Shown here in pieces: positions 5,192 to 64,000 of a DNA stretch of 64,000 nucleotides (position 1 is its first letter; each line of letters opens with the position of its first letter). The stretch spans positions 10,416,001-10,480,000 of the forward strand of contig CM075103.1 in the NCBI GenBank assembly GCA_037576195.1. Direction: 5' to 3'. The translations under genes were made by a program, and so were the position numbers. The notes below the pieces were generated by a model. The model had not been told where the DNA came from, ran no database searches, and saw nothing but the letters and a program-made list of their open reading frames with translations. The DNA comes from Phytoseiulus persimilis (Eukaryota; Arthropoda; Arachnida; Mesostigmata; Phytoseiidae).

Positions 5192-6405
5192 CTATAGAAG
5201 AGTTTACTCTTTTTTCTCACATGCTCTCGTCATTTGACAGACGTTCGAAAACAGAGTAGCACTCCCGTCAGAACCTCTGATTGCAAAGAGGATTCCTTAT
5301 TTGAGAAACTCTGGACTCGTGCGGAAATACGTTGAGGTATTATTTCCCGGAATACTTGAGCGTTTGTGTCGAAGCTCACGGTAGCGACGGCATGAGATTG
5401 GGGGCTCCAAACTTCTAGTCCATTGCGAGTTTCATCTCCCATCAACGGTCTTATGCTCACCTGATCGAAGCGGACATCATCGTACACGAAATTCACCGTC
5501 AATTCACTGAAATTCACATCCCTGCTCCACAAGTATGAGCAGGAATGTGTCGGACTCTGGTCATTCGATCCCAAGATCTCTAAAAATGTCACGCACTATC
5601 ACAATTTTTAAATTGACCCGATCTGCCGCCGGATCTATCAAAGAGGCTCCGCCTGACGCTGTTTATAACGCCATCAGCGGGATGCCTTTAGCGCTTCAAG
5701 CAGTGCCGGGACGGGAAAAATCCTCCATGAGAGACTGACGCACTCATTGTCCTCCGCGATCTGAGACCAGAGAAGAGTCTCATTGAAAGGCCCACGAAAA
5801 TAGTGAACATGTTGCGGCTGCATGTTGAGAGAGTCGGTGTTCACTCATTGTCGTGCTAAAGACCCACCACAGACCTCGGATAAGACACCTTATGTTTTGA
5901 TTTAGTTCAAAGCAGAAGTGGACGGCGGAGAAGGTGGAGGATGATGATGATCATCATGAGGGTAATGACAGCTGAACTGTACCAAGCAAGACACTGGAAC
6001 GAGTTGGCTCGGACCATTTGAAGCTGGTCCACATCGAAGGCGTCTGAGTAGAGTCCGAGGGTGAGGTTTGAGCTCCGTAGTACGTTTCTGAACCCGAACT
6101 TCTGTCACTATCCCTGGATTACAACTCAAAATATTCACCCGGCGCATTTAATTCGAAGAACCCGAAAGAACCAAGTAAGTTCCGCTCATGAGGATCCAGG
6201 GAATCGGTATTTGACGCTCTCTTGGGGAAGCAGCTAGGTGCACGGTCGCTGTTATCCTCGACCCATGAGCGGGAAGCTTCGCTCGACGAGGTTACCAGCA
6301 TTCCGCTGTAACCATTTAAACTTTTCTCCATTAAACCGTCACCGTGGTTTGGAAGCACGGCTCTTCTCCTCCCGACTGCTACTGACTGTTTCCAACCACT
6401 TTCAG
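5192..6405. other. Interval between the coiled-coil gene and CDK2AP1; 5' parts of both
   Basis: This should hold the missing 5' exon(s) of the minus-strand coiled-coil gene and the promoter, first exon and 5' UTR intron of the plus-strand CDK2AP1 gene. I cannot place these exactly. The palindrome ATGATGATCATCAT lies near 5943-5956. A minus-strand open frame (6415-6119) is readable across the region but has no recognised motif. Confidence 0.4.
6401..6405 (+). other. Probable 3' splice site of a 5' UTR intron in CDK2AP1
   Basis: A pyrimidine-rich tract ending in ttcag lies nine bases before the start codon at 6415. This suggests that the coding exon is preceded by an untranslated first exon. 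The matching donor was not identified. Confidence 0.45.
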
Positions 6406-6414
6406 AAGTTGACA

Positions 6415-6690
6415 ATGGAGGAGGATGCCCGCTCTACAGATTCGCCTGCCGTGGGCGCCATGATAGACCCGATGCTCGCTGCCCAACTTCTGGCCACTCG
6501 AGAACAGTATGCGGGAAAATCTAAGTACGCCCAGCTTCTCGCCGTACTCGAAGAGATCAATCGAGAGATTCGACCGACTTACGCTGGCAGTCGGAGCGCG
6601 ATTGAACGTTTGAAACGCGGAATTGTCCACGCTCGAATCTTGGTTCGAGAATGCTTGATTGAAACTGAGCGCAATGCGAGATACAACTGA
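6415..6690 (+). CDS. CDK2AP1: CDK2-associated protein 1/2 homologue (DOC-1), NuRD subunit
   Basis: A 91-residue protein in one coding exon. Residues 37-91 match the conserved C-terminal domain of the CDK2AP/DOC-1 family: [20 protein letters not shown], then [15 protein letters not shown] and an end in ETERNARYN. From knowledge of the family, DOC-1 proteins are nuclear, dimerise through this helical domain, are subunits of the NuRD chromatin-remodelling complex, and in vertebrates were first described as CDK2 inhibitors. The N-terminal 36 residues are shorter and different from the roughly 60-residue vertebrate leader; the acidic start (MEED) and the Ala/Leu-rich stretch ([17 protein letters not shown]) are not recognised. 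The ATG at 6415 was chosen because a strong splice acceptor lies nine bases upstream, leaving no room for more protein in that exon. Identification is secure; which of the vertebrate paralogues it is closer to cannot be decided. Confidence 0.93.
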
Positions 6691-9189: not shown

Positions 9190-11295
9190 TAATTTGACCG
9201 AGCTGGAGCTCGAGGTCGATGTGGGACTTTATAACCACTTCTATGTGGATAAGGAAGTGCTCCGACTATGGCTAGACGGACTCACAGGTGAGCGAAGGCG
9301 GACGTCGAGTAGAATCTTCCTTAGGGAGAGCATACGTCATGTATGATATTTGAAAGTGTTCCACGGAGGCTCCAGGGAAGCTTAGCCGAATCGCTTCGAT
9401 CCCTTCCAGCGAATATCAAGGCTGCAAAACCGCATCATTCTCTGGGATGGTCTGCCTTTGAATGGGGTCTTACGCGGAGCCGGCTCTTAGTTCCATGCTC
9501 GAATATAGAGATCAATACCGAACTTGCAAGATGTAAAATGGGTTTGTTTTGCTTCGCAGTCGAAGAAGCCGCGCGGCTCATCCACCAGGACCCGTCAACG
9601 TCCGGACCATCGGCATCCTTCGCCGTCCCTCTAGACTTGTTAATCGTCGATGTCGAAGATCACTTCCGAGGTTTCTGCCACATCGAAAAATACCTCCACG
9701 CCCCCTTGAGACTTGAAGATCAGTTTCTCGTCCAAATTAATAATGGTAAGAGAGTGATTTTCGACTCCGCCATCTGATCTGGTTGCGTATCGAAGTCGTC
9801 GATGATGAGACTCTCTATTCGGGGTTACAACGTTATTATTGTAGAGGTTCTTGAAACTGAAGCGTCCAGCAACGGAGCTGTTTTCCCGCATGTTGCGCGA
9901 ATCCATAGAGTCGCTCGCGATGGATCGCGGATTCGGGGGTTCGTTGGACGCGAGACTTTGGGGTACACAACATTCTCAACCTGTTCTCTCCTCGAAGATG
10001 ACAAACGTCTCCTCATTGAATCATACTATCAATACGACGCAAGTGTTGTGCGGGAAATCTTGGGTAAGAAGCTGTCTTCAAGAAACCGTAAGGATCTCGA
10101 TGAGGTTCACGAGAAAACACTAATTGATCTGAAGTCGTGTCGACGACAGTTCGACAACATCAAACGTGTTTATAAAATGGTGAGTGAATTCATGAATCCG
10201 AATCTTTCGCTGATATCCTCTGCGATCACACGGCGACCCTGCCGGCACTCATGCCACGTTTCTCTTCTGCTCTTCTAGGTAGAGGAGAGCCAAGGTACTG
10301 CGGTCACGATAATCCGATCACGATTTCTGCTCCCGATGAGTCTCGTACAAGATTATGCAGCCATCTCTTTCATGACCCATCACCGAATGGAGGCTTCGAA
10401 GAAAAAACTGTCTTTCCTTTCCCTGAAAGACTTCATCACTTGTGCCATCTTCATGCTCGATAGCTGGACATGTCGCACGCAAAGTTAGTTGAGGGCCGCA
10501 TCTCCCGCTCACTCCACAGAGGTTTCCCAATATCTTTGCTCCGACCGGAACTCATGCTGTGCCCCATTCCAGATTGTGCTCACGAGGAATCTTGTCTTGA
10601 CCTGGATCGCGAGTTCCTCATCTACCTCCGGGACTGTAAAGTGGTCACAGAACGAGATTTCATCGACAGAGTTCGAGACCACACGGTCGCTCTGGTGCGG
10701 AGCTCACTGTCGAAACACGCGTTGATCGACCTAGAACAGAACCTGAAGAACTACCTTCGTGTGTTGGCCAACATGGCATACAACTTGAACCACTCCAAAG
10801 AGTTCAGAGATTTTTTCCTTGATTGCGTGGAGAAGGTAAGGTCCTGAGGTCCCGATCGTAGAGTTGTCCAAGAAAAAACACTCGGCTTGCACCTTGCAGG
10901 GGGGGGGGGGGGGGGGGGGGGAGGGCACTCAGGATTGGAGGTTCGATGATTTTCCGACGGTTGCCAATTCACAGATTGTGGACCCCATGAAGAATGCTCA
11001 TTGGAGTCTTAGTGACGTGTCGTCATACTTGGACGCGCTCGCTAAAGCACCGAAACAAAGCGCGTTCCTGTGGTGAGTATAAATGGCTACAAGTATCACT
11101 GGATTGATGGAGCGGGGGCCTTGATTGGTTGATTCGAAGTTGGGTCTGGAACATCTGGCCTTGCTCTCACCCTGATGCAGTGGGTTTCCTTCCAGTGAAC
11201 CCAAGCTCCACGAAAATTGGGTACGCTTCATGACGACAGTGACAAAGTGCGTTTCTCATTTGTATTCGGCCTACTCGGAAAGCAGCACTCGCTGA
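9190..11295 (+). CDS. FIBP: Acidic FGF intracellular-binding protein homologue
   Basis: Seven exons: 9190-9287, 9560-9745, 9998-10179, 10279-10483, 10573-10835, 10975-11072, 11196-11295 (stop). All are GT-AG and phase-consistent, giving 376 residues against about 357-364 in vertebrate FIBP. Conserved blocks visible in order: VLRLWLDG near the N-terminus; [18 protein letters not shown] and [20 protein letters not shown] in exon 3; QDYAAISF in exon 4; [15 protein letters not shown] in exon 5; [14 protein letters not shown] in exon 6. FIBP is an animal protein known for binding internalised acidic FGF; its molecular role is still poorly defined, and in arthropods the FGF link is inference. Only the first few residues with the ATG are missing: exon 9190 begins at an acceptor (ctcacag) in phase 2 and no upstream ATG fits. 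The fifth visible intron carries a 23-G run and a second, in-frame acceptor (see findings). Confidence 0.94.
10899..10921 (+). repeat. Homopolymer run of 23 G in a FIBP intron
   Basis: Twenty-three consecutive G begin as the last base of a ttgcag acceptor-like site. The run lies 53 bases before the exon start at 10975 that homology supports. Such a tract is prone to length change, and to sequencing or assembly error. Confidence 0.95.
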
Positions 11296-52600: not shown

Positions 52601-55600
52601 CTCCGTATTCGGTCAATAATTCTGCTACGTGCACGCCTCCTTTCGTAGCCGTTGGAGCTACAGCACAGTTTTCGCCGCTCAAGTGTCGCGAGTTGTCGAA
52701 ACCATTCAGTCGCGCCGCCGACCGGGAGTGCGGCTCCGAGATTGGAGTTTGTAGTCAACGGCGAATGCGCAATCCAGCGCGACCAGGGTTTCTATCTATC
52801 ATTATTTCGCTTACTCACATTTGATACACCATCATTCGGGCTGTACGCTATTCGCGGCGATTCGGAATTGCCCCAGAGTCCGTATGAACTCTCAACTGAG
52901 AAAATCAGAACTTGTCAGAGCGATTTCGAATCGCCGTGAAGAACCCACAGCGCTAGCTATCACCACTGGGAATCGAGCATCCGCTGAATTAGTCAGTCAA
53001 CCGCTGTTTCCGGAAGTGTTTACGAAAACTGAGGAATGGGTTGAATGCTTCACGAATGAGTTTGATTAACCGAAGGAGCGAAGTGGTAGCCGAAAACACC
53101 ACTCTCGCTGAAGTGACAACAACTATTTCCAATGACTGAGCAAGTGTCTCTTCAAGTCAAAAGTGCGTTTGCGATACGAAGTTGCATCATCGTTTACGTA
53201 GCCCGGACACTGAATCTCGTTGACTGTGAGCATCCCTGATTTCGGGCTAACCGATCGGAATCACTTCACCCGAAGTTCTTCGAACGTGAGTTTTGTCCGC
53301 GGTCCTGCTCAGAACGCTTCGAAAGAAATGTTCGGTTCTTTCACACACACACACGAATACGGCTGGATTCCGCCAGGGACCTGAATTGGATACAAAAGCG
53401 TACTTCCACCGAGCATCGGTATCATATATGAATGAAACCGATCACAAAAATATCATTGTGAAGAGAAGCTCGGATCCCAGGCTCTTGGATCGACGATATG
53501 GCCGCGTGGACCGAGAAACTGCACAGCATTCCCGAGCTGTTTACCGCTCGACCCCAAAATCGAGAACGTTTCCATGGTTCCCATCAGGCGTTCTCTTCAG
53601 ACCAATGCCGGGAGTATCGGATACTGCAGTGGAGGCAATTCCCGTTCTTCGATTGACGAAAGATTCTGATCCACGGTGATTTGAGGCACCAACATACGTT
53701 CGACCATTGTGAAGGTTCTTCAAGGGTCCCCCTCAGTGTGGAAACCTCAGCCTCCCTCGAACGAAATCCTGACCGCGCGCGAGCGCAGACATCTGGGAAC
53801 TAATCTCCAGGCTTCGGGTACCATCTGCCGACCGTTGTGCGGATTCCGACCTCCTGTGCACTCGGCAAGAGCTGCCGCTCTCGTCCGCTTCTCAGATTCG
53901 CGGGAGAAAATAGAGAGAATTTCGGATCCAATGCGCGAAAGACATCATACGAATAGTAGACGAACTCCGCAAGCCACATTCGATTGCACGAGGGCAGCGT
54001 TCATCCTGGAAAACGAGGTTGTTTCAAGGATGATCGCGTCCGCCGTCCCTGTCATAGCCCCCAGAAACGCTCGATTCATAGCACTGTGGTCGAACATCGT
54101 CGTCACGTAACGATTCTCTGTTGATTCGTCTCGAATCCCGATGGGAGACGATGTTTTGGAACTCACATACTAGAGGGAAGAGAGAAACAAGTGGGCATTG
54201 TTCTCCTAGTCCGGAATAATCCAAACAAAGACCCGACCGCGTCGATAGATGCCAACGCACATGCGGACGTAACTCTTCTGGCGACGATCGAATTTCGCTC
54301 CAACGTTTCTGGAGATCTCGAACCGAGCTGAATTTCGAAATCTTTCGCTTGAAGTTTGCCACTCCTCTCCCTCGTCGCCTTTCGAGACTTCTCCCTTCTG
54401 GCTCGAGGAGGCAATTGTTCTCAATCGCCACGTAACCGATCCGACTGACGAGTCCCTTCCGAAGCGCGTTGCGGCTCCAACCGCGCACATTTCCTCGATT
54501 CCCCTCGTCTCCATGGCTCATCGGAGTCAAAGATCAATTCTTTTTTCTCCCATAGCACTTTAGCAACGTCGACTCCTCAAGTCACGAACGAGACGAATCC
54601 ACAGTACTCTGTTCCCATTGCTGCGTTTTTCCGTGCAATGTAGACAAGCTCCATGCTGCCTCGGATCCGAACCAACAGATAGCTCCTCCGATTCGATTCT
54701 ACGCCTTTCCCTCATGAACAATCGTGGCAGGGTTACACATACCAAGTTGAAGTGAGCTCTGTAGCAATGTTAATGCGTTCCCGGTTGGAGGCACGTTCTC
54801 AACGATCTTCTTTGTGCGAAATGGCCCCAAATAAAACGTTGCTCGAGTGGATTGTAACCGGTGATACCTGTTTCCCAATGTACCGGGGTGGAATTCCGTC
54901 GAGAAGAGTTCGCTGCAGAAGGACGTCGAACGGTATCACTCATCCTGGAGCTTCACGACTCTTAGAAGGGCAAGGGATTCCCAGAATCGGGTTCACTGGA
55001 CATTTCATGACGTGCTTGAGTTTGGAACGACTCGACTCCACCTTTTTCGATTCCGAGGTTTCTGGATCTTGCGGGCATCGGTGTCTTGCGTCTCCTGTAC
55101 GAGTATCGAACTCCGTGAGGAAGTCCTCCATGCTAGTTCTTTCGTTGTACTCCACGATGGCGTCGGAATGAAGCAGAACAATTCCAATCCCCTTCCCTCG
55201 GTTTTAACTGGAGCTAGAATTGACTGCCTCTCGGGAAACTTTGGAGTGTCACCTGCGAATGAAAGTTCGGATTCGAGCGAGCGAGAAGAAGTTCAGAGAT
55301 TGTAACTCCGAACCATACCAAACTTTCACGCGGTGGATTCTAGTGATGGACCTGCCAGCTCACAAATTCCATGAATCTGGAACGGAAATGAAGGAAAAAA
55401 ACGGAAATATGGGAAATCGATGTAACAGAAAAACAGAAACTGATCCGAGGACACGGATAACAGATTTGAAATCTAAGACCCCGGTTCACCCAAACCTAGG
55501 TAACAACTTTTCCGTTGCAGCACAATCTTTTTTTTCGGTGAGCTTGGTTATAAATGCCCACTCTTCCGAGACCTGCCAAAATACTCTGCATTCATGAGTT

Positions 55601-57214: not shown

Positions 57215-57371
57215 TGAACGACACATCGAGCTTTGAACTCGCGAATCGTAGGACCACACTTCACATTCTAGTGGTTAGATGAGGTGTGATCCTGAAATAG
57301 TATAATCGGGGGCCCATTTCCGTTGTCTAGCAGTGGAAGCTTAGTCCCCCGTCGCGGGTGCCAGGAATATA

Positions 57372-57402
57372 TTAGGTAAGTCAAAAAGTTCGTAGCGTTT
57401 TT
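57372..57402 (+). repeat. Mariner terminal inverted repeat (transposase 3' side)
   Basis: 31 bp, identical in reverse complement to 58625-58655; preceded by the TA duplication. Identity stops right after the T run. Confidence 0.96.
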
Positions 57403-57445
57403 TACCTATTTTTCAAGAGCCGAATTCCTGTACACAAGAGTCTTT

Positions 57446-58474
57446 TTATTGAATGATATATTGGCCGTTTTGTTCTATGACCTTCGCCCATCGGTCAGGT
57501 AAATCGAAGATTCCCTTCTCCCAGAACTTGGTTTCCTTCTTTCCAAAAAACTGATTGAGGTGATTTTTTATACCCTCCAAAGATTCGAATATTTCTCCAT
57601 CAAGAGAGTTTTGAAGAGACCGGAACAAGTGATAGTCTGACGGTGCAAGGTCGGGACTATAAGCTGGGTGTGGCAGCACATCCCAGTCAAACTCCGCCAA
57701 TTTCTGCCGAGAGCGCAAACTTACGTGGGGTCTCGCATTATCATGTTGAAAAACGACGCCCCATCTGTTCGCCAATTCTGGGCGCTTTGTTGCTACTGCG
57801 GTCTTCAAATCCTCAAGCTGCCTGCAGTAGACTTCGGTGGTGATGGTCTGACCCGGCGGGAGCAGCTCGAAAAACACAACGCCCTTGCAGTCCCACCAAC
57901 AGCTCAGCATCACTTTTTTTTGATGAATTTCGGGTTTGGGGACGGCTGCGGCCCGTGAACCTTTGGGGACCCAGCTTTTTCTTTGCGTAGCGTTCCTGTA
58001 GAGTATCCACTTTTCATCGCCGGTTATCAGTCTCTTCAGAAATGGTTCATTGGCATTCTTCCGGAGAAGAGTGTGGCTTGTATCCACACGTCTTTCGAGC
58101 TGGCGATCGGTGAGGTCATGAGGCAGCCAGATATTCCTCTTGTTTGAGAAGCCAGCTTGATGGAGGCGATTCCAAACGGTTCCATGAGAAACTCCCGTCG
58201 AGTCTTCAATTTCTTTGATGGTCAGGCCGGGGTTTGAAGTTACCAGGCTAATGATTTCATCGGGTTCCACAACTTGTGGTCGTCCTGATCTGGGCTCATC
58301 TTCAAGATTAAAGTTTTCAGCCTTGAAACGGGTAAACCACTTTCTAACCGTAGAACTTTGAAGAGCATTCTCCCCGTAAACTGCAGATATTCTTCGAGTG
58401 GTCTTCGCTGCATTCAAGCCTTCGCGGTAGCAGAACAACATTATGTGTCGAAAATGCTGCTTTTGGTCCTCCAT
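57446..58474 (-). CDS. Mariner transposase, intact, 342 residues
   Basis: A single unbroken frame of 342 codons, the usual length for mariner transposases. The N-terminal 110 residues carry the paired helix-turn-helix DNA-binding region, with the GRP linker motif at 64-66 (EPRSGRP). The linker motif WLPHDL at 116-121 corresponds to the family's WVPHEL. The catalytic DDE/D core has Asp153 (TGDEKWILY), Asp245 (QHDNARPH) and Asp280 (YSPDLAPSD), with exactly 34 residues between the last two, the DD34D signature of mariner proper. All catalytic residues are present. The protein binds the terminal repeats and performs cut-and-paste transposition into TA sites. The ATG at 58474 sits about 150 bp inside the right terminal repeat, a normal 5' UTR distance, and begins MEDQKQHFRH as in related elements. 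No stop, frameshift or intron is seen. Confidence 0.98.
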   Translation of the reverse strand: MEDQKQHFRHIMLFCYREGLNAAKTTRRISAVYGENALQSSTVRKWFTRFKAENFNLEDEPRSGRPQVVEPDEIISLVTSNPGLTIKEIEDSTGVSHGTVWNRLHQAGFSNKRNIWLPHDLTDRQLERRVDTSHTLLRKNANEPFLKRLITGDEKWILYRNATQRKSWVPKGSRAAAVPKPEIHQKKVMLSCWWDCKGVVFFELLPPGQTITTEVYCRQLEDLKTAVATKRPELANRWGVVFQHDNARPHVSLRSRQKLAEFDWDVLPHPAYSPDLAPSDYHLFRSLQNSLDGEIFESLEGIKNHLNQFFGKKETKFWEKGIFDLPDRWAKVIEQNGQYIIQ

Positions 58475-58624
58475 CGCAAATTCTTCCTGATTTTACGAAC
58501 TCGACGATAAAGTCTGAAACGATACACCGGTAGGAACTCTAGAGCCCGCCTAAGAACGTAAACGAGCAACCACTGTAGTAGGCGGCTCTTGTGCGGAGCG
58601 CGGGAATTTCAAAAATGTCGGATC

Positions 58625-58655
58625 AAAAACGCTACGAACTTTTTGACTTACCTAA
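58625..58655 (-). repeat. Mariner terminal inverted repeat (transposase 5' side)
   Basis: 31 bp, exact reverse complement of 57372-57402; followed by the TA duplication at 58656-58657. Confidence 0.96.
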
Positions 58656-58657
58656 TA

Positions 58658-60253
58658 GTTGGCATCGGAGCTCCACCCCGATTTCTCCTCGAAATTCCGC
58701 CTTCACCTAACAATATTGAAGGGCGGAAGAGTTCCAGTCTGCAATTCCAATTGAGCTTTCGCGTTAACCGGTACTCAGCTGTGCTCCAATCAGGGACTCG
58801 GGAGATAGCGCTCGGAACACAGAAAGTCTCCGTTGGCCTTGGGTCGACGCTTTGAGCGAGACGGAAGTGTCTCACGACACAGAGTTCTTACATAAGAACA
58901 GAGAAAACGAAATGCTCGACTGCTCATTCCAAACGTGAATTCAAATTCGACTGAAAGGAATGCGAAGACGAATGAGGACTTGAGGACGGATCACGAGTTG
59001 TGCTTCGCGGAGCTCGGCTTGCTTTTTTACGTCACACTTCCTTGAAGAGAAGATCCGACAATAGACGGGCGCTGTACTATCAATAGCTGTAGATACATGG
59101 AAATCCAAACTTTTTTTTGGGGCGAAAGTGTTGCACACAACTTGAGAACCCCTGGAGTGATCGAGGAACTCACACCGTGTTTGCCTCCATCTGAGATACA
59201 AGTGGAGCTCGGAAGAGAGCTGGAAATCAGAGACGAATCGAGTGTTTCCGTTCGCTTCTGACATGAAGCAACTGAAGGCATTGTGGACAATACGCGTAAC
59301 CTCTTGGCTCAAGGAGATGGGAAAACGAAGTCCTCCGAAAACAACGCGTTGTTTGCTCGAATCATCCCGCCTGCGAATGACAGAGCGGACGTGTTGGACA
59401 TTTCAGTCGATACCGAGAAGTGGCTCCCCCGTGCAGAATCAAGCTCGACTAGTCATCGTCAAAGTCCTCCCGGGGACGGGAATTCCCCCGAGACACAGAA
59501 AATCGGCAGAACAGCATCAAGAGAGCGACTGCAACCCATGGTTTCTGAGATGACGTTCCCGATTCACCCGCCGTCATTTCGTTCTGAACGAAATCCGTTG
59601 TGGGCTTCCATAGAGTTTGCCCTGTGATTCAGAGAAAACACGCCGGGTCAAAAGGATCATCGTCTGGAGCGAAAGACTTGCTCCAGTGACGGCGGCGCGA
59701 CTTGAAGATCACTCGAATCCATCTAGCGTTTCGGTCTGCCACAAATGAGAAGAGTCTAATCAACACAGGGTCTCATTGCATTCGGACGATGACAGTCTCC
59801 GCAGTGAAAACGGCAAAGTCCTCGTCCCGAGGCCATTGAGAACCAAGATTGTCCTGGGCCTATTTTATCTCCTCCGAAAACACCTCAATGTTACTCAAAG
59901 GCTGGCTATAATCAAGATCTTAGCGCCCGTGCACACATTCTTTCCTCACATCTGGAAACACGTCGAATCAAACCAGCGCTGAGCGGCTTGCGCCTGCTCG
60001 AAAATTTGAATCAGGAGGAAAAGTACAGGCCGAGAACGAACGAGCAAATCGTTAACCATTTTCTCTGGCAGAATGCCTGATACAGGGGATCAATCGTCTT
60101 AATTGACGGGCAACGAGTTCCGTCTTCCCCGGAGCTGATTAGTCGGGATTAGTGTTAACTCGAATCGCCTGATTGAAAATGGTGAGTGATCTATCCTCGA
60201 GGGTTGATTTGACTCAATCGAACGACCCTCTCATTGTGGGCCGACTGAGTCAG
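58658..60253. other. No gene recognised
   Basis: Open frames stay within chance length. A plus-strand frame at 59283-59627 (RIIPPANDRADVLDISVDTE) reads plausibly as protein but has no recognised motif or splice evidence. Confidence 0.45.
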
Positions 60254-61196
60254 TCAAGTGATCCCTTGTGAATATTTGACTGCGACCGGAAACGTCTCAG
60301 GTATCGTCTGGTCACAGATTTCCAGAGAAACGGAACGAATCGGCAGCGAGACGGACTTTTTCACCATTGTATCCCGAAGCCCCGACTGTGGAATTGTCTC
60401 GGACACCTTCTCCTCGGAATCACCAGAGAGAGAGAGGCGACGAAGCGCACGGAGGGGCTGAGTGCTCCGAAATAGTGTGCGCTGCAGATAGCATATCATT
60501 TTCTCTATCTTGCGCAACTTAGCTTCTTTCGTGCTTCGTTGGACAGACTCGGAACCTACGGCGTTACACCTGGTGGAAATCTGGGCGGAACTTGTCCATT
60601 CGGGCTGAGATGAGAAATCTGGAAGCCGAACTTCTTGGTAATTTGGGAGCAACCTTCAATTCAGCTCGAACAGCGAGCTCGTCAAAGTCTCTTAAGGCTG
60701 ACAAAGATCAACTCCCGTCGCCGAATGTGCAGAAAATCCCGATCTTGCCTATCGGGAGTTACTAACGTACTGCATAGCTGTCTCTTTCGTGAGAGACACG
60801 CATAAATCGTGCGGTCGAATCTTGCAGAAAATTCAGAATAACTCGAGCAGTGTCCAAGATACTTTCCAACTGGGGACCAGTTCCTCCGACCGTCAATGAT
60901 TTCCTTTTCAAACGAACGTAGACATCGTCTCTCATTTCCTCAAACAAATCTGAGATTGCGACGAGGCGGGGCGCAAACCTGCAATCGCTTGAGAGCCGCT
61001 TCCCGGACTGGTCTGCATCGGATGCAGGCTGAGATCCCACTTCGGAGCCGACTGAGACGCCGTCCGCAGAATGATTGAGAGCCGCAGGAATCCCGACTCC
61101 GGGAGCCGAAGAGGTGATCGCATGTTCATGGATAATCTCCTGAGAGAAACAGGAGCCGTTCATTGTGGTCGTCGTTCCGGCATAAGATTGTGGCAT
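60254..61196 (-). CDS. Candidate two-exon gene, unknown product
   Basis: On the minus strand an open frame from an ATG at 61196 runs to a possible donor (GCA|gtacgt) at 60771/60770. It contains a Ser/Gly/Ala-rich N-terminal half and a more structured end (DLFEEMRDDVYVRLKRKSL, then ESILDTARVILNFLQDSTAR). A second frame, about 60650-60254, reads EKMICYLQRTLFRSTQPLR and ends in YSQGIT at a stop. The two could be spliced, but several acceptors are possible and none is decisive. No family was recognised and both frames are within chance length, so this is a weak candidate. Confidence 0.22.
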
Positions 61197-64000
61197 TATT
61201 TCATTCCTCAATGTCCTCCGTCATCTGGAAGTTCCCGATTGTCGCGCTGATGATGATTCTGGAAATGACCCCACGACCCGTCTTGAGGTTAATCTCCGAA
61301 CTTTTCCTTCGTCAGCTCTTCGAGGGCTCTTCGGGTAGGGTCTTTCGAGACAGATGCGCATGTGCGGGGTATGCCTGCGTTCCAACGCTGATTGGATCGG
61401 GACTTGGCATCAAGTACACCGGTAAGTATCCGAATGCTTTCGAAAAACCACTTTCCCTCGAGGAGAGTAGCCCTCTGAGCTCGAGTTCGCCAATGAATGT
61501 TAGCTCACTCCAGCGAAGCGAGGGAGAAGTTGAACATCCTGATCATTCCATGTGGGACCTACTGGGCTCAAAGGGTTATCTCAGTCCGAATAAAAAAGTG
61601 GCAAGGAAACAACTCGAGACCGAGCGCCTCCGGCGGCCGCCGGCTGTCTCCGAAGTCCCTGAGCCTGGCTCGGAGACAACGATGGCTTGATCGGATGCAA
61701 TGATGGAACTATCAAGGAACGGATGATTTCTCTTGTCGGCTCGCACTGAGCCCTAGGCTCCTCGTCGCCTTCCGAGGTTTCCCCGAAATAAGTAAGGAGT
61801 AGGAGTAGTGAATTCATAGCAGACCGCCGGTTGAGGAAGTCATGGGGTTGTGATACCGAAAACCTGCTCCGACCACGATGGGTGACCTGATCCGGAGTCT
61901 GCTCCTGAGGATGCATGACCAGACGCTTACCAGTTCTCAGCAGCGCACGACGAGAAGTTTCGCCACGAATTATAACTCCGCTGATAAGAGAACGGAACAG
62001 AATTTCCGTTGACTGAACTTCCGTTACTCAGCTGAATCTGGAAACTCGTCATGGCGGAGTAGGGAATCGAAAATATTACCTTCATTGTCCGGATTTGCCT
62101 CCGAGACTTTCCTAATGGTCCCTTTCCTCCGACTGGTTCTGTGGCCGTAGATAAGCGCATTATAGATTGTAGCGTATGTTTTCATTGCCGAGAGAGAACG
62201 GTTAAAAAACTCTCGGTTATTTTTGTCGGGTGAGAATCGCCTCCTAGCCTTGCGTAAATCATTCTTCGAATTAGAAATGGGACGTTCGCGTGGGAGATAA
62301 CGAGTCCGTCGACTGGAAATTGTTTGAAGTCACAGAATAATAAGCGAATCTCTGATCGGCGTTGAGTTCGCTTTCCGGATTCGTTCGGAAACAGGCGAGA
62401 ACGAGGGAGATGAAATAGCTTCGTCCTTGAGGAATTTCTAATTGCGACTGTCAACTCTTATATCTGTCATACACTATGGCGGAGGGTTCCGCCCAATCGG
62501 TGTTGTCGAGCGGTTCATCTCAGAGCGGTGGACAGTTGTTGATAATCTAGGCGAATGATCGAGATCGAGTGGTCTATACTACATCCGAATGGATGTTTCC
62601 ATCCCTGGTATCTCAGAACGCGCGTCGTCGTTAAATCGAGTTCCCACCCGGATCGGCCGTCTCAATCTGTATTTTTAAATTAGGGTGCGTGTTTGTTTGT
62701 TTGTTTGTCCGTCTCCCGGCGCGTTCCGCGTTACTGGTTATCTGGTCGGACTGCCTTTATCTTCAAAATACACGGGCTCTTCGAAACGCTCCTCAGGTTT
62801 CCAAGAACGCTCAGATCAGGGTGTGAATCCCGAACTTCCATCTCGGATGATCGCTCGATCTCGATATCCTGGTTTGTTGACGTGTCGAGTCCGCGATTTA
62901 TTTTGAATAAAACGCCGAGCTTCGCAGACTTCTCTCACCAATTGCCATCGGAATCCTGATTCGTAGAGTGCAGATTCGTTAAGTGGAAAACGGCACATTG
63001 CATTGGACAGAGATAAGGTCCCCTAAACGTTTTGAACGAGAGCCGTGAAAGAGACAACAAACTCTATGTTTTATCTTGGCTCAGTCCGTCAGTCCAATCG
63101 TCGTTCCCGATTGGATATTCACAAATTTCAGGCGTCGATGTCCAGCACCTCCGAGATCGATAAATCATTAGTAATGCGGTGAGACTCATATTCATGGGTG
63201 ATTACAGAAAAGAGAGTATTCCTAAAGAAAAATGGACGATCGCGCCTCTCGGACAGAAATATCTCATCGCTGGCTCGCATAGCTACGCGAGGAGTTGCTT
63301 GTCGATCAATTTTGGCAAAGGATCAGAACCGATCTCGAAAACAGTAAACACGAGCTTTCTCCCAGAATGTTGACAGCGACGACAGAATCGCGGAGATAAG
63401 TCAATTGGGATGGAATGCGAGATTTCTGTCTGTCCCAGATTCCGCGTGTCAGAACCAAGAACCCACCTCTGCTTTCCGCCCACTGATTGAGAGCCCGCGA
63501 CGGCTTCATCTTTGTGATAAACGCGCCTCACCGCGAAATCGTCTCGATCATCGGATGTGCAATATCCGTTGGATTATTCGCGTTGGAGCTTCGCATATTG
63601 ACAGCAAGTCGGTTGACAGGTCCTTGAGGCATGTGTCGTGCAGCGGATGATAATTATCGAGGATATCCGCGGGGAGTTGAAACATCAACATCCCACCTAA
63701 CCAACTGCGGCCCATACGGGTACCCCTCACTCCCTCCCCACTATTCGGAGTCGGGTTCGAGATTCCTCCTGATTCGTGGATGGATTCCTCGGATTTCTCG
63801 GATATGTGATGCTATGTTATGTATTTGTCATTGTCTGATGCTCGGCCATAGTTGATATCATCTCGCTATTATATTCCTGATGGACTCCTTTCGGCTCGAA
63901 GAACGGTTCAGCGAGCAGTCGTTCGGCTCTTCGCCGACTTTTCTAGATTCTCTCGAGTTTCGATTGCTCCCAGAAGAATCGAGCTTCGAAACCGTTTCAA
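61197..64000. other. No gene recognised to the right edge
   Basis: A plus-strand frame at 61163-61690 (175 codons) overlaps the previous candidate on the opposite strand and shows no family feature. The rest has only short frames and a small GTTT repeat. Confidence 0.45.
62691..62708 (+). repeat. Short GTTT microsatellite
   Basis: Four and a half copies of GTTT in a row. Confidence 0.9.

Follow-up and report, generated by a model that had tools for sequence, protein, structure and literature searches.

Few natural mariners of the DD34D type have been documented as active, and the available part of the 2008 report on Mboumar-9 from Messor bouvieri counts this element as the third active natural mariner after Mos1 and Famar1 (PMC2581405). 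Mboumar-9 is described there as an intact DD34D mariner of ~1,287 bp that has 32-bp ends, encodes 345 aa, is flanked by TA, and is active in vitro (PMC2581405). Mariner-2_DF from Solenopsis invicta comprises 857 copies, some of them identical, with a π of 0.005 and polymorphic insertions, and the accessible portion of its report adds RNA from the germline, data on populations, and evidence from several species of horizontal transfer, and finds purifying selection on the copies unsupported (PMC6307670).

The window analysed here, a 64-kb stretch of Phytoseiulus persimilis DNA, carries a complete mariner of 1,284 bp at 57372-58655, with its transposase gene oriented on the minus strand. The rest of the genome holds another 64 copies that are nearly identical to it (together with the window copy, family A). 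Mos1 shares the length and the TA target of this element, and its terminal inverted repeat (TIR) has an unlike sequence. The Hsmar1-derived domain in SETMAR is a domesticated one. At the protein level, the Mos1 transposase of Drosophila mauritiana (PDB 3hos, 3hot, 4r79, 5hoo) is similar to the window transposase over nearly the full length, with 132 of 337 aligned columns identical (39%) and the same three catalytic aspartates, and the window element likely belongs to a different mariner subfamily. The SETMAR domain (PDB 3f2k, 3k9j) is a related catalytic domain with 94 of 225 residues identical, but its third catalytic residue is N where the window element has D280.

Going by the portions of the two reports available, Mboumar-9 resembles the window element in being a natural intact DD34D mariner, (PMC2581405), and the Mariner-2_DF burst resembles family A in its identical copies, its low π (0.005 versus 0.0030) and its copies free of detectable purifying selection (PMC6307670). 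The latter likeness is one of behaviour and not of element sequence, and it joins 857 copies to 65 with one apparently polymorphic site. A literature search with three pieces of the A TIR gave no match in a scope that leaves out most subscription journals and supplements, which says little. The mariner type is already well known, and the window element is a well-preserved further member of it, nothing new in kind.

Anatomy of the element and its transposase

The two inverted repeats, at 57372-57402 (plus strand, downstream end relative to the gene) and 58625-58655 (minus strand, upstream end), are 31 bp long and 100% complementary, as the preliminary description of this locus had reported, and they extend to 33 bp when the adjoining TAs are included. 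The TA duplications it placed on both sides lie at 57370-57371 and 58656-58657, and TA flanks all 65 copies of the family on both sides. When up to three mismatches were allowed, the 31-mer of the ends was found at just two places in the 64-kb window (shuffle mean 0.00). Ends of ~30 bp on an element of ~1.3 kb are typical of mariners, as is insertion at TA with duplication of the TA; the latter is also seen in another copy of the family, whose flanks joined at a single TA equal an empty site on contig C2 (see below).

The open reading frame at 57446-58474 on the minus strand runs through 342 codons free of lesions, which agrees with the earlier claim, made with the strand unstated, and with the one-frame transposase of ~340-350 aa, carrying a helix-turn-helix and a DDE domain, that characterises mariners. 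Pfam places an N-terminal helix-turn-helix, HTH_48, at residues 5-54 (58313-58462, minus strand; 68.8 bits) and a partial DDE domain, Transposase_1, at residues 158-236 (57767-58003, minus strand; 108.6 bits), each above its curated cut-off, and similarity to the Mos1 transposase structure 3hos_A spans residues 5-340 (E 5.6e-82). The catalytic residues D153 (codon 58016-58018), D245 (57740-57742), and D280 (57635-57637), all on the minus strand, align to Mos1 D156, D249, and D284, and 34 residues separate D245 and D280, so that the DD34D spacing proposed earlier was recovered. The linker motif, described beforehand as WVPHEL-like, actually reads WLPHDL, and the predicted YSPDLAP motif is present in the transposase.

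The window feature thus has the complete structure of a DD34D mariner and looks autonomous. In a cut-and-paste mechanism modelled on Mos1-type biochemistry, for which the required parts are found in the anatomy of family A, the N-terminal helix-turn-helix would bind the 31-bp ends, as in Mos1, the D153/D245/D280 site would excise the element, and the element would insert at a TA that is duplicated in the process. Transposase from intact copies would also mobilise copies with broken genes in trans.

Frames near the mariner at 54683-55168, 58944-59402, 60765-61220, and 61136-61687 gave no Pfam match at E 0.01. Farther away in the window, the plus-strand frames at 6238-6690 and 9325-10278 carry CDK2AP and FIBP domains (Pfam) and are ordinary animal genes.

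The young family in the genome

Copies were enumerated through pattern and similarity searches of the 181-Mb assembly (127 contigs, of which C1-C4 measure 54.7, 52.0, 38.9, and 28.1 Mb, with the window on C3), then fetched piecewise and aligned. COX1 was looked for in the same assembly, with no mitochondrial code specified, and not found, perhaps because the mitochondrial genome is missing from it. The best 40 of 116 candidates for full-length matches to the element all showed 100% identity. An internal 45-base pattern with at most three mismatches gave 67 matches, namely 64 young copies, of which L078 was matched two times, plus two relics, L066 and L088, while a second 45-base pattern from the opposite end, at the same tolerance, gave 64 matches including L077, which was absent from the first. 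Young family A was accordingly aligned as 65 copies, with the window copy counted and L066, a relic at 91%, kept out. A strand bias suggested by the best 40 matches came to 27:40 over the 67 internal-pattern matches (p 0.14) and was dropped.

Substitutions were counted on 62 of the 65 copies, leaving out L061 (deleted), L077 (indel-rich), and L078 (palindromic). The L078 palindrome (C3:34654116-34656365) has two 795-bp arms at 99.9% identity that cover some of the element together with flanking DNA, and it is either an inverted duplication or an assembly foldback artefact; as flank is included, 64 insertions were counted as independent. The 62 copies differ from their majority sequence by a mean of 1.94 substitutions (0.15%) and a maximum of five, and nine of them, at nine sites, match it exactly. 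Their π is 0.0030, the greatest pairwise difference is 0.7%, and 47 of 1,891 pairs are identical. The window copy equals the majority sequence apart from a single private A>G change (G on the plus strand) at non-coding position 58566, outside the reading frame. The preliminary description had proposed this genome-wide search for copies and their divergence, and had named many diverged copies, with the window copy no less decayed, as the outcome that would speak against it; copies turned out to be many, but not diverged.

Both terminal repeats are perfect in 58 of the 62 copies, and the full 342-aa frame is intact in 50 of the 65 and broken in 15, with 18 copies, the window copy among them, encoding an identical protein. 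The rarity of perfect copies that had been implied does not hold in this genome, where near-identical copies with intact genes, as expected of a currently active element, are the rule. The 82 distinct substitutions comprise 56 private ones, 17 common to two copies, six to three, and three to four. Distinct coding changes (14 synonymous, 38 nonsynonymous, and four stops) are close to the neutral expectation (fractions of 0.245, 0.709, and 0.046), which indicates that the copies are alike through youth and not through selection. Five of the 50 full-frame copies are altered within or adjacent to motifs that are catalytic or conserved, namely by D245E in L069 and L070, D275N in L071 and L079, and E154G in L027.

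The shortest of the 65 fetched copies is the internally deleted L061 with 821 bp, and no burst of MITEs was seen among these copies and the TIR matches listed (152 counted). About 130 of the 152 are explained by the 65 copies, and those remaining are plausibly, for the most part, right ends of a sister family, B, which lie three bases off the A end.

Evidence of movement

The copy on contig C126 (L002) provides an apparent empty allele: its joined 700-bp flanks match C2:4147347-4148046 end to end over the junction at 100%, and the next 1,500 bp reach 2,706 bits on both C126 and C2, with no third match. C126 is an unplaced contig of 30.5 kb that matches C2 near 4.147 Mb. The simplest reading is that C126 and C2 would represent the filled and the empty haplotype of a single locus, although the pair may instead be a very recent segmental duplication. 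Small contigs of the assembly may hold further polymorphic insertions. Presence/absence polymorphism had been suggested as a check at the window site, and an apparent case of it is found at this one other site only: the window insertion has no empty allele in the assembly and its flanks match only themselves, either because the insertion is fixed or because the assembly has collapsed or lost the second haplotype. A pooled search with all 65 copies (best 40 of 1,183 candidates), dominated by empty sites that belong to other repeats, revealed no clear allelic empty site beyond C126/C2, and a second one with 56 copies, which left out L001, L002, L007, L035, L065, L069, L070, L078, and L079, gave nothing above 98% among the best 40 of 414 candidates.

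Five copies (L007, L079, L035, L069, and L065) were inserted into other repeats, of which uninterrupted copies exist elsewhere. Among the best 40 matches, uninterrupted 60-bp sites numbered 14 for L007 (one at 98%) and 21 for L079, the remainder all at 100%, and the host repeats of these two copies are apparently additional young repeat families in the genome. Target choice was also biased: WWNTANWW is fitted by 50 of 64 insertion sites (all copies except L078), whereas only 5.4-5.5% of background TAs fit it (93 of 1,737 in flanking DNA close to the insertions, 100 of 1,823 in the window). This preference fits the known bias of mariner/Tc1 elements, which, according to the part of the source available, favour bendable, palindromic AT-rich sites (PMC5481204).

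Defective copies have recurred at unrelated sites. The same 5-bp deletion occurs at three sites (L073, L080, and L084) and the same stop at codon 110 at four (L041, L053, L072, and L083), and within both groups the flanks are unalike over up to 240 bp per side (60 bp for L083 and L084). This implies that transposase of intact copies would have acted on them in trans; gene conversion spreading the shared lesions is less likely. L069 (C3:10188451) and L070 (C3:21108195) are identical and share four substitutions, D245E among them. Each is inserted into a copy of a single ~45-bp-period repeat and runs against the direction of that repeat, and their insertion TAs appear a few bases apart, judged from the flanks. 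The shared host repeat means that duplication is less clearly excluded for this pair.

I am highly confident that the window holds a complete DD34D mariner whose family amplified very recently in this genome, was active, and may still be so. The recent insertion and possible activity suggested by the preliminary description are borne out by the 65 near-identical, TA-flanked copies, the apparent C126/C2 empty allele, and the recurring defects, from which I infer that the A family is putatively active at the present day. Alternatively, the burst may be over and the family, though structurally complete, now silenced or dead. All of the evidence does record past movement, and 53 of the 62 copies carry at least one substitution, so most insertions are older than the last few generations; but the nine identical copies at nine sites and the one apparently segregating insertion make such an end to the burst a minority prospect. 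It is highly improbable that repeat collapse or mis-joining put the element in the window, because, even if the L078 palindrome (C3:34654616-34655865) with its included flank illustrates that artefacts or foldbacks can occur, TA lies on both sides of 65 out of 65 copies, the flanks (up to 240 bp per side) are unalike save for the L069/L070 pair and a 54-bp match between L067 and L076, and the window copy has a private base and flanks that match nowhere else in the genome.

With few active mariners known, a segregating-looking insertion, and a majority of frames intact, family A is a good candidate for natural activity and for following a burst in progress. The amplification is otherwise an ordinary biological event.

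Relics, a sister family, and the origin of the young copies

Family A has a sister in the same genome. Family B, represented by L087, shares 81% DNA identity, 289 of 342 amino acids, and the outermost 22 bp at its ends with A; the open frame of L087 encodes 368 aa and stops within the terminal repeat. At least 21 places (L087 and 20 others) match B at 89% or more, 14 of them at 100% and seven at 89-99%, among the best 40 of 107 candidates, and L090 and L093, at ~93% to B, lie outside those 21. Family B is thus also young, with a graded series of older copies. Two related young families in one genome are useful for the question of residence versus return from outside.

The A lineage itself has left five decayed relics, three of them (L088, L066, and L089) at a divergence of 9.0-9.4% and two (L094 and L095) at ~15%. 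These same-lineage relics show that the A lineage was present in the host genome earlier, and it is therefore not new to the host or its ancestors. The recent horizontal arrival that had been put forward as one implication of a perfect copy is consequently not established, and the comparison of relic and modern changes as a clock is mixed, as set out below.

Relic comparisons were made with 11 fetched relics (five of A and six of B), using B as the outgroup for A and A for B; counts for L088, L066, and L091 vary by one to three between alignments. Nonsynonymous changes (relic:modern) were 64:6, 14:0, 53:5, 87:6, and 67:3 for the A relics L088, L066, L089, L094, and L095, and 28:1, 39:7, 64:4, 28:3, 12:0, and 15:0 for the six B comparisons. 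In each of the 11 comparisons the relic accounts for most of them, which indicates that the active A and B lineages stayed functional. The active lineages have evidently been under strong purifying selection over this longer time, and dN/dS between A and B is 0.12-0.16 by three methods.

In a resident lineage, synonymous sites are expected to change equally on both sides. Synonymous relic:modern counts were 9:7 (L088), 6:0 (L066), 13:1 (L089), 27:10 (L094), and 16:5 (L095) for A, and 6:5 (L090), 10:5 (L091), 19:9 (L092), 9:6 (L093), 4:2 (L096), and 3:0 (L097) for B. Non-coding counts in the same orders were 9:0, 5:0, 0:0, 14:4, and 8:3 for A, and 4:1, 9:7, 16:10, 6:2, 5:1, and 4:3 for B. B is near balance with some relic excess. 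In A, too few changes lie on the modern side when L066 and L089 are the relics compared, but this shortage is absent at synonymous sites against L088 (p 0.8). Counts for different relics are not independent, as the modern branch is common to all of them. A tree built from third codon positions plus non-coding sequence gave a modern A branch of ~0, with low node support inside A (39-63).

These data can be read in two ways. I consider it probable that a resident source copy stayed functional and re-amplified, i.e. that the A lineage persisted vertically and spread in repeated waves. Relics of two depths, 9% and ~15%, lie in the same genome as the young copies, the sister family has both old and young copies there, the modern lineages were under strong purifying selection throughout, and L088 shows synonymous balance. 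Vertical persistence is less at ease with how little neutral change modern A shows in the L089 and L066 comparisons, and with the gap in divergence between 0.7% and 9%.

The other reading is a recent horizontal re-introduction, which would have produced the young A copies after an earlier wave of the lineage had decayed. It draws on the same gap, since no two of the 62 analysed young copies differ by more than 0.7% while the closest relics recovered stand at 9%, and the two 45-base patterns (up to three mismatches), with every match listed, returned just young copies and the relics L066 and L088, whereas family B has places spanning 89-100%. However, these patterns are blind to copies that lack both regions or have diverged by more than ~7%. 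Pooled synonymous and non-coding counts of 13:1 (L089) and 11:0 (L066), two of the three 9% relics, and the near-zero modern A branch, with its support of 39-63, likewise favour a return from outside; the pooled count for L088 is 18:7. Against it stand the synonymous balance of L088 and the older relics L094 and L095, whose pooled 41:14 and 24:8 compare with 10:6, 19:12, 35:19, 15:8, 9:3, and 7:3 in B, so that relics outrun modern lineages in both families, and all relic counts depend on each other through the common modern branch. Searches of viral contigs and prokaryote genome contigs for relatives of A gave none. On balance, re-introduction is possible but doubtful.

A more specific version, which I hold only tentatively and think rather unlikely, is that the genome was invaded at least twice by the A lineage, with a near-ancestral form, little altered at neutral sites in the interval, returning from another host and B resident throughout. 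If true, invasion would have left an old wave as the 9-15% relics and then today's 65 copies, and A and B would form a matched pair of re-invader and resident that, with the outer 22 bp in common, might cross-mobilise.

Beyond A and B, a protein search recovered other mariners at no fewer than 20 places (pieces of L077 excluded), at 33-60% identity and with stops in 13. Two of the mariner matches, C3:23443448-23444455 at 47% and C2:5797517-5798524 at 43% identity, cover residues 7-341 with no stops and are possibly further intact mariner families.
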